From the NCBI RefSeq assembly GCF_028372415.1, contig NC_092875.1:51460771-51524770 (forward strand): DNA of 64,000 nucleotides, read 5' to 3'. The DNA is from Notamacropus eugenii (lineage: Eukaryota; Chordata; Mammalia; Diprotodontia; Macropodidae). The notes beneath the pieces were generated by a model, which worked only from the letters and a program-made list of their open reading frames with translations, was not told where the DNA came from and did no database searches. The position numbers and the translations under genes are program-made. Of this stretch, positions 12,411 through 62,400 are shown one piece after another (the stretch's first letter is position 1; every line of letters begins with the position of its first letter).

Positions 12411-12482
12411 TGCGCAGGGGGCTCCTCGTAGGAGAACTAGATTAGGAAGAGAACGTCGCCGGCACCCGCCCCGCCCCCTCAC

Positions 12483-12630
12483 GCCTGCGCTCTCCGGTCA
12501 GGGCAGCGCCCTCCTCCTTTCTGCGCCTGCGCTCTCTAGTCAGAGCAGCTCCCTCCTCCTTTCTGCGCCTGCGCTCTCTAGTCAGGGCAGCTCCCGCCTC
12601 CTTTCTGCGCCTGCGCTCTCTAGTCTGGGT
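12483..12630 (+). repeat. 42-bp tandem repeat with NRF1-like sites
   Basis: Copies begin at 12483, 12525, 12567 and 12609 (the last partial), exactly 42 bp apart. Each carries GCCTGCGCTCT, and three read CTGCGCCTGCGC, a close fit to the palindromic NRF1 site. Between them are 'CAGGGCAGC' and 'CCTCCTCCTTT' segments. Copies differ at only a few positions. Confidence 0.9.
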
Positions 12631-27645: not shown

Positions 27646-28642
27646 CTCTGACATCAAATACCAGACTCTATTGTATGACCCTGTCAGCTTGGCCATGTGG
27701 TTCCATGCCCTTGAGTGGCAGAGATGCCCATTGTTAGACCGTTCCCTTAATTATTGGCTCAGGGCAGGAAGAAACTCAGGGGTTTGGGGTAAAGGACTGG
27801 AGCAGCCACATACCTTCATGCCCTTTTCTGTCCCCATCACTGGAGCCCCAATCTTTGGTCCTTCCAACTTCCCTGAGTCTGGTTCAGCCCTAGTTCCCTA
27901 AACCCCCTGATGATTCTCCTCTCCCCACTTCTTCCCCATTGCCTGCGATTCTGATTCTATTTTCATTAACTGTTTCCCTCCTTGAACCCACTACTACCTT
28001 TAGAATCATGCAACCACAGAATGTTAGAATTGGAAGGGATCACAGAGGCCGTCTAGTGCAACACACACTCAGATAAGGATTTCTGCTATTATATACTAGA
28101 CACTAGTAACTAGGTGTTAGGTCCTCTACTACTTCTGCTTGGAGACCTCCAGGGAAGGGGTCACCTATTCCATAGAAGAATGTCTAGTCCTCTGTTCTCC
28201 AACTCCTGGATCCATCCTTGCCTCTATCTCCCATACCTGAATCTCCCCATTCTTATCTGTTTATTTCTGTATTATCTATATCTATACCATTTCCACATCT
28301 GTCTATTTAATCATTTGTATCTATTTCCCCATTCTTATAGATAGGAGTATGTGTGTGTGAGCATGTATGTACACATATATATGGATATCTATAGATATAC
28401 AGACATAGATGTGTATGTGTATGTGTGTGTAGGGTTTTTCTTAGTGGGTAGGGAAACTGGCTCTCCTGACTTCACTCAGACTGGAAGTGCAGTGGCCACT
28501 CATGATTCTAACCCCATTACTGATTGACACAGGAGCTTTGACCTACTCTTTTTCCAATTTTAGCCTGTTTCACCCTCCTTGGGCAGCCTGGTGGTCTCTT
28601 GCTACCGGGGGCTTATCACTGGTACAGGACTTAGTCTAGAGC

Positions 28643-28843
28643 CAGGGATGGGGAACCTGTGGCTTTGAGGCCACATGTGACTTTCTAGGTCCCTGGGTGC
28701 AGCCTTTTGATGAGTCCAAGTTTTATAGAACAAATCCTTTTATTAAGGGATTTGTTCTGTGAAGTTTGGATTCAGTCAAAGGGTTGCACATGAGGACCTA
28801 GAGGACTGCATATGGCCTCAAGGCTGCAGGTTCTCCACCCCTG
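28643..28843. mobile_element. Palindromic hAT-like MITE
   Basis: A 201-bp near-palindrome. The ends are CAGGGATGGGGAACCTG and its complement-related CAGGTTCTCCACCCCTG. The arms pair through 'GGACCTAGA' and 'GATTCAGTC' type segments to a centre near 28743 (ACAAATCC...GGATTTGT). Flanks share an imperfect 8-bp duplication (GTCTAGAG / GTCTAGAC), as hAT elements make. It has no coding capacity and depends on a transposase from elsewhere. Confidence 0.8.
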
Positions 28844-29089
28844 GTCTAGACCCTGTAGCTCAGAACTCCTAAGTTCAAGCTATTCACTATCCTCACCCTC
28901 CTTGGTAGCAAGGATTACAAGCATGCACCATTCTCATACTCTGAGATATACATGCTCAGCTGCATTCTCATGTTCTGCTTCCTTTCATATTCTTGTCTTT
29001 AAAGTCCCTTAATATTGTCTCTCCATTATCCCATGTGCCTATCTGTGGTGTCTATGCTGCTACTTATTACCTGTGTGACCTTGCATTAG

Positions 29090-45854: not shown

Positions 45855-46159
45855 AAAGATACAAGAACATCTGTGAAATGGGTAGATAGATACACAGATA
45901 GGTAGATAGATGGATAGATGTATGTATGTATGTATGGATACACAGATAGGTAGATAGATGGATAGATAGACAGAGAGAGGGATAGATAGATAGATAGATA
46001 GATAGACCAATGGATAGATAGATAGATATACAGATAGGTAGATAGATGGATAGATAGATAGATACACAGGTAGATAGATAGATACACAGATAGATAGACA
46101 GGTAGATGATAGGTAGATAGATACACAGATAGGTAAATAGATGGATGGATAGATAGATG
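45855..46159 (+). repeat. GATA-type tetranucleotide array, left arm of an inverted pair
   Basis: (GATA)n with GATG, TATG and CACAGATA variants. The first about 45 bp (45855-45897) are non-repetitive ('GATACAAGAACATCTGTGAA') and reappear reversed at the end of the array at 47213-47466. Confidence 0.9.
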
Positions 46160-47212: not shown

Positions 47213-47271
47213 CCTATCTATCATCTATCTGTCTGTGTATCTATCCATCTGTCTACTTGTCTACCTGTCTG

Positions 47272-47333
<62 letters not shown>

Positions 47334-47466
47334 ATCTGTCTGTCTATCTATCCCTCTCTCTGTCTATCTATCTATCCATCTATCCACCTATCTGTGTATC
47401 CATCCATCCATCCATCCATCTACCTGTGTATCTATCTACCCATTTCACAGATGTTCTTGTATCTTT
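47213..47466 (-). repeat. (TATC)n array, right arm of the inverted pair
   Basis: Twelve or more perfect CTAT units around 47275-47330, then variants. It ends with 'ATTTCACAGATGTTCTTG' in reverse-complement match to 45855-45897. Confidence 0.9.
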
Positions 47467-53099: not shown

Positions 53100-53530
53100 T
53101 GAAGTTGATAGGAAAGGAAGGAAGGAAAGGCAGAAGGAAGGAAATAATCGTTTATTAAACATCTTCTATGTTCCAGTTACTGCCCTAAGTACTTATTAAC
53201 ACCAATTATTTACAAACACCAATTTTTACAAAGGGATGTTTACTTTGAATAAATAACAAGAATAGAAAAACAAACATTTACCACTCCCCCTTATATAATT
53301 TCAACCCCAGGGCAGCTAGGTGGTACAATGGATAGAGTGCTGAGCCTGAAGTCAGGAAGACTCATCTTCCTGATTTCAAATCTGACCCTGATGCAGGTCA
53401 CTTCACCCTGTTTGCTGCAGTCTCCTCATCTGTAAAGTGAACTGGAGAAGGAAATGGCCAACACTCCAGTATCTTTGCCAAGAAAACCCCAGATGGAGTC
53501 ACAAAGAGTTGGACATGACTGAAATGACCA
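53100..53530 (+). repeat. GGAA-rich tract, LINE 3' fragment and a sense tRNA-type SINE
   Basis: 53115-53145 is (GGAA)n-like. About 53150-53200 is a LINE 3' end. 53310-53530 is a SINE with head 'GGCAGCTAGGTGGTACAATG' and tail 'CTTTGCCAAGAAAACCCCAG' then 'GGACATGACTGAAATGACC'. Confidence 0.75.
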
Positions 53531-54019
53531 AAAACGAAACCCAAACAAAACCAGAGTTAAAATATACATTACTGTGAGTTCAGACTTAGTGCAACATAGT
53601 GTTGGTCCCACTAAGTTTGTGTCCAAATGTGGCATTGGTGCTGTGAGTCCTCCTCTTAGGTGCTACAGGGCATAGTCCTAAAGATTGCTCCTGACTTGAT
53701 TGGAGAATGGCTGGTTCCAAATCTGACCTGGACTTTGCTCCAGGACCTCTTGATGGTATACTCTCCTTTATTTTTCAAAAACTCACAGGGTCATATCATT
53801 TTCATTTTCATCTGAAAGAGGAAAGAATGAGCCACATGTTGGCCTATGATGGGAAGAGCTTGAGATCTCTTCCTTTAGAGCATTGTCTCTGTTCTCTCAT
53901 TGGGATATAGCCAGGCAGGAAGAAGTCAGATCAAGATTAGTCTGGATGACTAGGTCCTTTTGAAGGCTTTCCAGTTTCTACTATGCAACCAACCAAAATG
54001 GCAGGAGGTAACAGGCTGG

Positions 54020-54480
54020 TAGGAATGGGACAAACATTTGTTAAACATCTAGTATGTGTCAGGCAATGCTCTTGCAAATATTATCTTATTGATCCTCACA
54101 ACAATGTTGGGAGGTAGGTACTGTTATTATCCCAATTTACAGTTGAAGAAATTGAAGCATACAGAAATCAAGTGACTTGCCCAGGATCATATAGCTAGTA
54201 AATGGCAAAGGCAGGATTTGAACTCAGGTCTTCATGACCCCAATCCCTGTGCTCTATTCACTGTGCCACCTAGCTGCCTGGAACCCGTCACAGAAGACCA
54301 CCAACACTATGTAGCATTAAGTCTTAACCCACAGTAATAAATATTTTAACTCTAGTTTTGTTTTGGTTTTGTGTTTGGTCATTTCAGTCATGTCCAACTC
54401 TTTGAGACTCCATCTGGGGTTTTCTTGGCAAAGATACTGGAGTGTTTGCCATTTCCTTCTCCAGTATTTCCGTAACATTT
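54020..54480 (-). repeat. Two antisense SINEs
   Basis: About 54025-54285 is full ('ATTGATCCTCACAACAATGT', 'GACTTGCCCAGGATCATATA', 'CACTGTGCCACCTAGCTGCC'). About 54375-54475 is the tail part ('TCATTTCAGTCATGTCCAAC'). Confidence 0.75.
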
Positions 54481-58270: not shown

Positions 58271-59260
58271 ATGCCCAAAAAGGGGAAAAAAATAAGAACC
58301 TGGTGAACAGGTATTTTCTTCCATCCTTTCAGATGAGGAAGAACAATGCATACTGTCAGAGGAAGTCAAGGTTTCTGCATCTAGTACCTCCAAAATAAAT
58401 ATGACATGGGCTCAGGCCATAGAAGAGCTTGAAAAGTGAGTCAACAGTTTGCTAAAAGAGACCCCAAAAATGCTGAAGAAAATAACACCTTTAAAAATAG
58501 GCTAACTCAATTGGAAAAAGAGGTCCAAAAAGCCAATGAGGAGAAAAATGCTTTAAAAGGCAGAATTAGCCAAATGGAAAAGGAGGTTCAAAAACTACTG
58601 AAGAAAATAGTTCTTTAAAAATGAGAATGGAGTAGATGGAAGCTAATTACTTTACCAAGAAATTACAAAACAAAACCAAAGAATGATAAAATAGAAGATA
58701 ATGTGAAATATCTCATTGGAAAAACAACTGACCTGGAAAATAGATCCAGGAGAGACAATTTAAAAATTATGGGACTACTTGAAAGCCATGATCAAAAAAA
58801 GAACCTACACATCATCTTTCATGAAATTATCAAGAAAAACTGCCCTGATATTCCAGAACCAGAGGGCAAAATAAATATTGAAAGAATTCACTGATCACCT
58901 CCTGAAAGACACCCAAAAAGAGAAACTCCTAGGAATATTGTAGCCAAATTCCAGAGTTCCCAGGTCGAGGAGAAAATATTACAAGCAGTTAGAATGAAAC
59001 AATTCGAGCATTGTGAAAATACAATCAAGATAACACAGGATCTGGCAGCTTCTACATTAAGGGATTGAAAGGCTTAGAATATGATTAAGTCAAAGGAACT
59101 GGTATTAAAACCAAGAATCATCTACCCAGCAAAACGGAGTATAATACTTCAAGGGAAAAAATGGTCATTCAATGATATAGAGGACTTTCAAGCATTCTTG
59201 ATGAAAAGACCAGAACTGAATAGAAAATTTGACTTTCAAACACAAGAATCACGAGAAGCA
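58271..59260 (+). pseudogene. L1 ORF1 (RNA-binding chaperone), broken
   Basis: The start codon context 'MPKKGKK' at 58271 soon meets a stop. Later frames give a coiled coil ('FKNRLTQLEKEVQKANEEKN', 'ISQMEKEVQKL'), then the RRM-like core ('LENRSRRDNLKIMGL', compare human 'RNEQSLQEIWDYVKRPNLRLIGV'). The C-terminal domain follows ('LKPRIIYPAKRSIILQGKKW', compare 'FQPRISYPAKLSF'). ORF1p normally binds L1 RNA as a trimer. Several stops and frame changes make this copy non-coding. Confidence 0.75.
58650..58864 (+). repeat. 215-bp inverted repeat, arm A (inside L1 ORF1)
   Basis: By direct comparison it is identical to the reverse complement of 61368-61582 at 214 of 215 positions (one A/G difference, in GGGACTACT against GGGGCTACT). 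Identity stops abruptly at both ends. Confidence 0.95.
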
Positions 59261-59380
59261 TGAAAAAGGAAAGAGAAATCATAAGGGACTTACTAAAGTT
59301 GAACTGTCTACATTCCTACATGGAAAGATAATATTTGTAACTCTTGATACTTTTCTCAGTATTTGGGTAGTTGGAGGGAT

Positions 59381-59382
<2 letters not shown>

Positions 59383-59421
<39 letters not shown>
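59383..59421. repeat. (CA)n microsatellite
   Basis: About 19 perfect CA units within the half-L1, after ORF1. Confidence 0.95.
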
Positions 59422-60250
59422 CACAGGTTGAGTTGAGTAAGAAGGAATGATATCTAAAAAAATAAAATTAAGGGCTGAGAGAGGAATATAATGGAAGGAG
59501 AAAGGGAGAAATGGAATGGGACAAATTATCCCTCATAAAAGAGGTAAGAAAAATCTTTTTCAATGGAGGAGAAAAGGGAGGAGATGAGAGGAGAAAAGTG
59601 AAGTTTACTCTCTTCACATATGGCTTAAGGAGGGAATAACATGCTCACTAAATTTGGTATGGAAATCTATCTTACACTACAGGAAAGTAGGGGAGAAGGG
59701 GACAAGTGGGGTGAGGGGATGATAGAAGGGAGGAAAAATGGGAGGAGGGAGTAATTAGAAGTAAACACTTTTGAGGAGGGACAAGGTCAAAAGAGAGAAT
59801 AGAATAAAAGGGCGACAGGATAGGATGGAGGAAAATATAGTTAGTCTTACACAACATGACTATTATGGAAGTCTTTTGCAAAACTACACATATATAACCT
59901 ATATTGAATTGTTTGCCTTCTCAGTGGGGATGTGTGGGGAGGGAGGAAGGAAGAGAAGTTGGAATTCAAAGTATTAGAAGTGAATGTTGAGAATTGTTTT
60001 GCATACAACTGGGAAATAAGAAATACAGGTAATGGGGTATAGAAATCTATCTTGCTCTTTAAGAAAAGAGAGAAGATAGGGATAAGGGAAGGGTTTGATA
60101 GAAGGGAGGGCATATTGAGGGAAGGGGTAATCAGAATGCAGGGTGTTATGGAATGGGGGAGGGGAATGATGAGGAGAAAATTTGAAACTCAAAATTTTGT
60201 GGAAATGAATGTTGAAAACTAAAAATAAATAAATAAACATTAAAAAAATA

Positions 60251-60262
60251 AGTGAGAGGAAA
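60251..60262. repeat. Target-site duplication, right copy (half-L1)
   Basis: AGTGAGAGGAAA directly after the A-rich end of the half-L1. Confidence 0.7.
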
Positions 60263-61367
60263 GGATGTAGAGGCACTTATTGTAGACAGTTTTTTCAAGG
60301 ATTTTAGCCACAAAAGACAGGAAAGATATGGGAAGATGGTTATTGGGGTTGGATGGATCAACTGAGGATGAGAGTGACAAAGACATGTATGTAAGCAGTA
60401 GGGAAGTTGCCAGTAAACAGGGAAAGATTGAAGATAAATGAGAGGGTGGGATAATAGGACAAATTGCTGGACACTATTGGATGGCATAGGATCATTTGTG
60501 TATATAGAGGAGTTGGCCTAGTCAAGGAGAGTCACTTGGTTATATGAGACAGGAGTGAAGGAGGAGATATTGGCAGAAGGTATCTGGAGTGATGTGAGAT
60601 GAGTAGAAGAAAGAGTTCATGGTGAATGACCTCAGTTTTTTTTTAGTGAAATAATAAGCAAAATTCTCAGCTGAAAGGGCTAGGTGTAGGGGAACCATAG
60701 AAAATTTGAACAGACATGAAAAGGTCTGGAAGAGCCACTGTGTTGAGTAGAATAGTGAGTTCATTAGGGAGGTATAAAAGGATTGTCTTTCAGCAGGGAA
60801 GGTACAGTTGACCTTATACAACATATATTCATAGTGAACCTCATCAGCATGGTTTCATGATTTTTTCCATCTTTTTTTTTTTAAGCAGTGCATGTATAGG
60901 AGTGAAAGGCAGCAGATGGTGGGAATGATCCAAGATTGAGAATTGGCAGGGCAATTTTGATGGTATAAAGGAGTAAAGGATTTGGAAGAAGAGGACAGAG
61001 TAGAGTTTTACTAGTTTATCAAAGGGTCAAGATGGAGAGGGAGGAAAGTGTAGCTAGTATAAGGGTGATGACCTGGAAAATAACTGCAATGTAGAAGGAT
61101 TGGAGGTCATGATATAAATGATGAATATGGTGTGGAACTTTGAGGGGGAGATAGAATGGAAATAGATTGCCAACAGATGTAGAAATTTCAAACTTCATGA
61201 ATGTAGAAGTGGTGCATTTGTGGGTGATGACAAGATCAAGGATATGACCATCTTTGTGTGTGAGGTGAGCTGGAACAGTAGGTCATGGGAAATAGAAGGT
61301 TGAGGAACTAAGGAGATTAGATTGGTGTCTTCCAGTATGAGGGTAGGAGTTGAGGAGGACAGTAAAA

Positions 61368-61582
61368 CTCTGGTTCTGGAATATCAGGGCAGTTTTTCTT
61401 GATAATTTCATGAAAGATGATGTGTAGGTTCTTTTTTTGATCATGGCTTTCAAGTAGCCCCATAATTTTTAAATTGTCTCTCCTGGATCTATTTTCCAGG
61501 TCAGTTGTTTTTCCAATGAGATATTTCACATTATCTTCTATTTTATCATTCTTTGGTTTTGTTTTGTAATTTCTTGGTAAAG
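61368..61582 (-). repeat. 215-bp inverted repeat, arm B (isolated L1 ORF1 piece)
   Basis: An internal slice of L1 ORF1, without L1 5' or 3' ends, poly(A) or duplicated flanks, sitting in CR1-clade LINE sequence. It is 214/215 identical to arm A. Confidence 0.95.
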
Positions 61583-62400
61583 GCATTTAACTCATTGAGG
61601 AAAGAAGGGGAGTGTCCTGGAGGTGAGTAGACAATTAAGTACCAGAATTTTGAGTGGGTAGTAGACAGAAAACCACAAAGGAATGGAGGATACTTAGTAA
61701 TGGAGGTAGAAGGAGAGTCTGGAAGTGACAGTGGGGAGCAAGGACTATTCCAAATCTCCCTCCAACCATTTAGTTGAAGAGAATGAATAAAAAAATAGCT
61801 AGCACTGGAAAGGGAGGCCAGGGAAACTGTGTTGTCAGGAGTAAGCCAGGTCTCAGTGAGAATCAGAAGATTGAAGGAATGGGAAAGAAAAAGATATAAA
61901 GTGCAAGCAATTGTGTTGCTTATGGAACAGGCATTCCAGAAGGCACAATATGGATAGCTTTGTGGTGAGATATTGGAGAGGGGTGGGTTGAGGGGAATGG
62001 GAATCAGTCAGTGGATGAGAAGGAACCAGATTTGAATGATGTCTTCTGGGGAGTTCAGAATTACTAAAGTGGGGGAAGGAATGGCCAGCAGCAGAGAATA
62101 GAGGCAGAGAAAGAAGATGGTGGAGGTGACCGAAGGTTAAAGATTAGCAGAACAAGAACAAGAGGACAAAAAGGGAAGGGAGGGGCAGCAATGAAGCTAG
62201 AAGAGAGTTATTGACTAAAGGAGCAGGGAGGGAATGAGAGATGTGAAGTTGTTGGAGAGGTCTGACAGAAGTAAAGCAACAAGAGCGGTAGAAGAATAGG
62301 AGTTTGTGATTGGAAAGGGGAATTTCAGAGTTCAGGACCTTGGAAGTGGATACTTTAGTTAATGGAGAGATCTAGTGTATGTCCTCTTTTTTTGATAAGG

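Follow-up and report, generated by a model that had tools for sequence, protein, structure and literature searches.

The window analysed here is a 64-kb stretch of DNA on contig C14, and the genome to which it belongs (3.45 Gb, 254 contigs) was the scope of the genome searches. Within it, two arms of an inverted pair lie in two different interspersed repeats, with the following arrangement of features:

58421-60251, plus strand: putative HAL1-like element around arm A, made up of an ORF1 region and a 3' region; the span is unbroken in 12 of 26 genome loci.
58650-58864, plus strand: arm A, the donor, a stretch from within the ORF1 region of the decayed, apparently HAL1-like element, in its original context.
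60900-62065, minus strand: ancient LINE-like repeat interrupted by arm B, delimited by paralogs that align across the join of its flanks; the strand was read by eye from reading frames.
61368-61582, minus strand: arm B, the copy at the acceptor site, which matches the reverse complement of arm A at 214/215 positions and carries arm A's departures from consensus.
61368-61369, no strand: putative left-junction microhomology, CT (2 bp), which fits both the host consensus (..ACT) and the tract (CT..).
61581-61582, no strand: putative right-junction microhomology, AG (2 bp), which fits both the tract (..AG) and the host consensus (AGGC..).

Self-alignment of the window pairs the two arms as a gap-free reverse-complement match of 214/215 bp with a spacing of 2,503 bp, as the original prediction had described, and a near-perfect match of this length is not a product of chance. 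The identity breaks off sharply at both ends, and the five bases by which the match could be extended beyond arm A (58645-58649) fit the host-repeat consensus, by eye, at four of five positions. Inspection of the junctions and of the host-paralog alignments found no target-site duplication (TSD), poly-A run or element end at the edges of arm B, in keeping with the sharp edges and the missing tail, L1 end and target duplication first remarked upon from the sequence. When the whole window, together with 61 genome loci, was compared with itself at a threshold of at least 80 bp and at least 90% identity, only two pairs were recovered, both of them inverted (arms A/B and 53441-53606/54300-54465), and no direct pair was present in the window or the 61 loci at that threshold.

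The ORF1 region of the element, within which arm A falls, is followed directly by the 3' region. Comparison of 58421-60251 with 26 genome loci revealed 12 that are unbroken over about 1.8 kb, nine more whose alignment reaches the limit of the fetched sequence, and five that are broken or short; related sequence reaches upstream to at least ~57.5 kb. Among three ORF1-region pieces submitted to Pfam, the matching piece of copy L003 returned the L1 ORF1 RNA-binding domain (PF02994, E 1.5e-11), another matched coiled-coil-like models below cut-offs only, and the third matched nothing, while two short ORFs in the 3' region of L003, the one copy whose downstream part was examined, gave no Pfam match. 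HAL1 has been described as an ORF1-only element (PMC5322556), and the layout of the present element suggests that it is likewise HAL1-like, that is, ORF1-only, rather than a full L1. The decayed L1 of the earlier description would hence better be called a HAL1-like element.

The relationship between the two arms was addressed at several levels. Relatives of arm A are numerous in the genome, yet the best 40 of 2,592 candidates consist of A, B and 38 others that are at most 96% identical, so that the many equally close L1 copies named beforehand as evidence against a local origin of arm B are not found among them. As only the best candidates had scores, a pattern search was added with a 49-base string of the tract (58655-58703), allowing up to two mismatches. 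This string has 25 matches in the genome and is exact in A and B only, and the 23 matches outside the arms all have A at 58687, where both arms have T. An earlier comparison had relied on 22 copies picked by the tract itself (four of 26 loci dropped for short alignments); because choosing copies by the tract biases the tract, the divergence test was repeated with 18 copies picked by their similarity to the right flank of arm A (two of 20 dropped, the alignment being too short). Against the consensus of these flank-chosen copies, the tract of arm A shows six substitutions and two deletions, of 7 bp and 1 bp. Arm B carries 6/6 of the substitutions and both deletions. The six bases and the 7-bp gap occur in none of the 18 copies, and the 1-bp gap in one. 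In the tract-chosen set, arm A departs at eight substitutions, all common to arm B; its bases at 58687, 58779 and 58835 and the 7-bp gap occur in none of the 22 copies, and the other five bases occur in one to eight. Three of the six flank-set substitutions are not absent from the tract-chosen set, where they are found in 1, 8 and 5 of the 22 copies.

Other sources for arm B were considered and rejected. No recent duplicate of arm A came to light elsewhere, the right flank (501 bases to the right of the tract) being at most 90% identical to the best 39 others of 5,887 candidates. Two places on contig C1 share a 29-base string at the deletion junction, but they have neither the deletion nor T58687, and the string starts one base outside the tract and is hence unable to match arm B. 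Because arm B carries changes proper to arm A, and the tract string is exact in these two places only, arm B is best read, on the strength of these alignments, as a copy of arm A made after the decay of the latter. The contrast between the near identity of the arms and the decay around them, noted from the outset, is thereby given substance. With one difference in 215 between the arms against 17/334 departures from consensus in the flanks of arm A, the copying event appears recent relative to the decay of arm A, with the wide limits on its date that a single event imposes. The sole mismatch, at 58774, is A in arm A and G in arm B (in the orientation of arm A) and is probably a change of arm B's own; the position is A in 16/18 and C in 2/18 of the flank-chosen copies, and its being G in the two contig-C1 copies makes the direction of change less certain.

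The repeat that arm B interrupts is highly diverged, its left flank being 68-73% identical to the best 39 others of 2,253 candidates. It gave no Pfam match, and its minus strand, by eye, resembles a LINE endonuclease, the original prediction having placed it in the CR1 clade. Out of 29 paralogs fetched, 23 can be aligned over the junction of the two flanks, at 62-68% identity, and the junction set comprises 21, the remaining eight of 29 having no alignment that covers at least 60 bases on each side of the join. If CT and AG are assigned to the host, the joined flanks differ from the paralog consensus by one 7-bp gap, located at the insert, and because the consensus aligns in this manner some 211 new bases would have replaced about 7, leaving 2 bp of microhomology at either end and neither a target duplication nor a tail. 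It is the paralogs only, at 62-68% identity, and not an orthologous empty allele, that point to this replacement and its microhomologies. All seven host bases at the gap are present in 12/21 paralogs and at least five in 18/21. The 7-bp loss could nevertheless be older than the insert: 3/21 paralogs themselves hold fewer than five of the seven bases presumed lost, and a MAFFT multiple alignment gave a different arrangement of the host bases at the gap. Microhomology of 2 bp per end is close to chance level and carries little weight alone.

Insertions of this kind have a precedent in the human genome, where 824 repair-mediated duplications have been reported (Pace, Sen, Batzer and Feschotte, 2009; PMC2671141). 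In the proximal class defined there, the donor lies less than 5 kb away and the copies have a mean length of 162 bp and a maximum of 619 bp; the 39 proximal cases inspected display microhomology of 2-9 nt, deletion of 1-15 nt or filler (9/39 being labelled "MH+Del"), and none has a poly-A/T tract (PMC2671141). Like the members of this class as there described, arm B is at least 50 bp long (215 bp), interrupts one repeat whose parts rejoin within 30 bp (a 7-bp gap), has one other place in the genome for the insert (the exact 49-base string) and has its donor within 5 kb (PMC2671141). The empty site deduced from paralogs adds apparent 2-bp microhomology at both ends and a 7-bp deletion, arm B has no poly-A/T tail, and the authors of that study likewise used a repeat consensus as the empty site when a close relative was unavailable (PMC2671141). 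Unlike the donors in that description, arm A itself belongs to a repeat family and is recognised by its own changes, and the present genome is unlikely to be any of the ten species listed in Table 3 of that work (PMC2671141). In each feature tested, arm B thus fits the published class of proximal repair-mediated duplications (PMC2671141).

On this evidence, arm B is very probably a germline DNA-repair scar, generated as a proximal repair-mediated duplication. In the repair model, a break, or a broken fork, would have arisen in the old LINE-like repeat at ~61.37 kb, with the loss of about 7 bp of the host repeat. One 3' end would then have paired with arm A over some 2 bp, in inverted orientation and at a distance of 2.5 kb, allowing a polymerase to copy 211-215 bases from it, and the extended end would have been joined to the other side of the break through 2 bp of microhomology. 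We infer the break, the polymerase step and the identity of the invading end. The route may have been either a fork event with two switches (MMBIR) or synthesis-dependent strand annealing completed by microhomology end joining, and strand annealing, end joining and a double template switch leave identical traces at arm B. The templated insertion by strand switching or break repair initially proposed for this locus is accordingly the reading that the later comparisons favour, through the changes of arm A found in arm B, the apparent loss of ~7 bp and the 2-bp microhomologies. No function is suggested for the inverted copy.

The alternative that survives best, at a low probability, is retroposition without a tail, through a truncated HAL1 or L1 RNA, internal priming at an L1 nick, endonuclease-independent insertion or a class 2 RNA patch. 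L1-type machinery is known to make many tailless truncated copies (PMC5322556), and breaks can be filled by templated inserts of 73-414 bp for which RNA templates have been argued (Onozawa and Aplan; PMC5110952). These class 2 TSIPs resemble arm B in their length (73-414 bp, median 191 in a cell assay), in showing microdeletion and microhomology and neither TSD nor tail, and in having partial LINE-1 sequences among their templates, but they are described as having distant donors and RNA as the favoured template (PMC5110952), and the short distance to the donor here, 2.5 kb, favours a local DNA template over an RNA patch. Retroposition would require decayed arm A itself or a local transcript of it as the template, since its changes are present in arm B, and the chance that a donor drawn from 3.45 Gb should lie at 2.5 kb is very small. 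A TSD of 8-35 nt, as expected of tailless retropseudogenes and of target-primed L1 insertion (TPRT), is not seen at the insert, where the flanks differ by eye and a loss of 7 bp appears in its stead. Furthermore, a poly-A/T tract accompanies 17/29 of the other inspected copies and 0/39 of those with a donor less than 5 kb away (PMC2671141). With no tail, TSD or element end to be seen, retroposition was rejected; the comparisons demonstrate instead that arm B derives from arm A, postdates its decay and is devoid of retroposition marks.

Gene conversion is marginally less probable again, although inverted repeats separated by a few kilobases are in general able to convert one another. Under this scenario, arm B would be an older inverted HAL1-like fragment homogenised with arm A, or arm A would have been overwritten by arm B, and either process could account for the fact that, of the 19 tracts compared, that of arm A has diverged least (2.8% versus 3.1-8.1%), with six changes seen where the pooled tract rate predicts 11.5 (P 0.06). 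Scaled to the flanks of arm A itself (17/334), however, 8.1 changes are expected for the six seen (P 0.30), the direct comparison of tract (6/215) and flanks gives a Fisher P of 0.27, and the tract also lies below the flanks in the 18 other copies pooled (212/3951 versus 431/5935). In the biased, tract-chosen set, the corresponding values for arm A are 8/215 in the tract against 22/229 and 45/504 in the flanks. Low divergence of the tract would therefore be at most a weak sign of gene conversion. There is, moreover, no element sequence outside the 215 bp of arm B, and the identity stops at the ends of the copy on both sides, a limit for which conversion alone would not account; as the tract of arm A is not clearly young relative to its flanks, gene conversion was rejected. 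Least probable of all is an assembly or amplification chimera that is absent from the animal: amplification is known to produce local inverted chimeras, but the arms differ at one base, and the arms of a second, similarly built pair have diverged by 7%, which is beyond any recent artefact.

The repair reading may also be set against other classes of locally templated mutation. Template-switch mutations share with arm B a nearby reverse-complement template, a return to the original strand and a four-point geometry, but the gold-standard set described in apes has a median of 12 bp and a maximum of 128 bp, against 215 bp copied over 2.5 kb here (Walker et al., 2021; PMC7954356). Small inverted triplications, which have been put down to replication errors, likewise contain an inverted fragment (median 160 bp), but they are described with flanking direct duplications and spacers of ~30 bp (PMC13334657), which are not seen here; no direct copy of the tract or its flanks was found in 57.5-63 kb, nor in the window at 90% identity over 80 bp. 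In yeast, templated inverted insertions at breaks are reported as mostly 5-34 bp long (PMC11724301).

Arms A and B do not stand by themselves, for two further inverted pairs lie to their left:

53441-53606, plus strand: inferred donor of pair 2, the 3' part of a SINE with low-copy flank; 53541-53606 occurs twice in the genome.
54300-54465, minus strand: inverted copy of pair 2, 92.8% identical and without the 5' part of the SINE, from the self-comparison.
45855-46116, plus strand: pair 3, GATA arm 1, which begins with 28 non-repeat bases; the 28-mer occurs twice in the genome.
47214-47466, minus strand: pair 3, GATA arm 2, inverted, with a drifted GATA part and 41 identical bases at the non-repeat edge.

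The arms of pair 2 are 166 bp long and 693 bp apart, and the two genome matches of 53541-53606 are the two arms themselves. The pair does not look like SINE retroposition: it has no SINE head, it runs past the tail and it has no poly-A run. The 28-base edge of pair 3 has two genome matches at up to three mismatches, both in this region and mutually inverted, and pair 3 is likely to be one more local inverted copy, whose microsatellite has since drifted. Three inverted pairs are thus found within 16 kb (45.8-61.6 kb), with arms 0.7-2.5 kb apart. Their divergence, 0.5% for A/B versus 7% for pair 2, indicates clearly different ages, the drifted GATA pair being undatable. The suspicion that the same mechanism had acted repeatedly here, voiced at the start with regard to the GATA arms, has gained from those arms and from a pair not named at that point, both with sequences that occur twice in the genome.

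The three inverted scars lie unusually close together. In human, repair-mediated duplications occur at 0.62 per Mb of TE DNA (PMC2671141), compared with three inverted events in 16 kb here. Applying that density to all 64 kb of the window yields 0.04 expected events and a P of 1e-5 for three or more, or 0.008 at tenfold the human density, values that overstate the case in that they set one closely inspected window, picked after one event, against a strict pipeline. A control comparison was therefore made at 85% identity, 40 bp and a gap below 10 kb, with low-complexity sequence masked (which hides pair 3), over 90 kb of other sequence (40 kb of contig C2, 30 kb of contig C15 and 20 kb of the right flank). 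At this threshold, the window contains two inverted pairs and the control none, and direct pairs number one in the window, two in C2, one in C15 and none in the right flank; at 80% identity, the right flank shows two weak inverted pairs (71 bp at 82% and 44 bp at 84%). Since the chance of both inverted pairs falling in the window at an equal rate is (64/154) squared, or ~0.17, a hotspot at 45.8-61.6 kb is unproven, and 90 kb of control is too little to decide. Short doublets in mammals are described as lying mostly on the same strand, and the inverted orientation of all three pairs counts against the main reading. That inverted local repair copies arise in this 16-kb stretch, or throughout the lineage, far more frequently than has been described is rather unlikely.

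Other local repeats occur in the window. A looser self-comparison returned 104 pairs, and among the best 60 most look like members of dispersed families. An imperfect palindrome of ~217 bp at 28634-28851, 75% identical to its own reverse complement, is perhaps, by eye, a DNA-transposon relic; a tandem repeat at 12482-12625 has a 42-bp spacing and copies that match the reference at 93% over 60 bp; and 56876-57023/57295-57441 form a direct pair, 79% identical and ~270 bp apart. As candidates for further repair copies these three were set aside by eye as likely repeat-family or tandem sequences, and so were 36887-37063/37730-37908 and 23397-23532/24198-24325, as likely repeat-family copies or tandem repeats.

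Arm B is hence real and explained, its class is already published (PMC2671141), and the cluster of three inverted events is what most deserves to be followed. On the one hand, the locus offers a clean and datable germline break-repair scar, in which the donor is known by its own mutations, the empty form comes from paralogs and the junctions can be placed at base level. Inverted arms of such size may, in turn, seed later hairpins and rearrangements. On the other hand, if either a hotspot or a high rate in the lineage were true, this region would be a place to study why some loci mend their breaks by copying a neighbour backwards.
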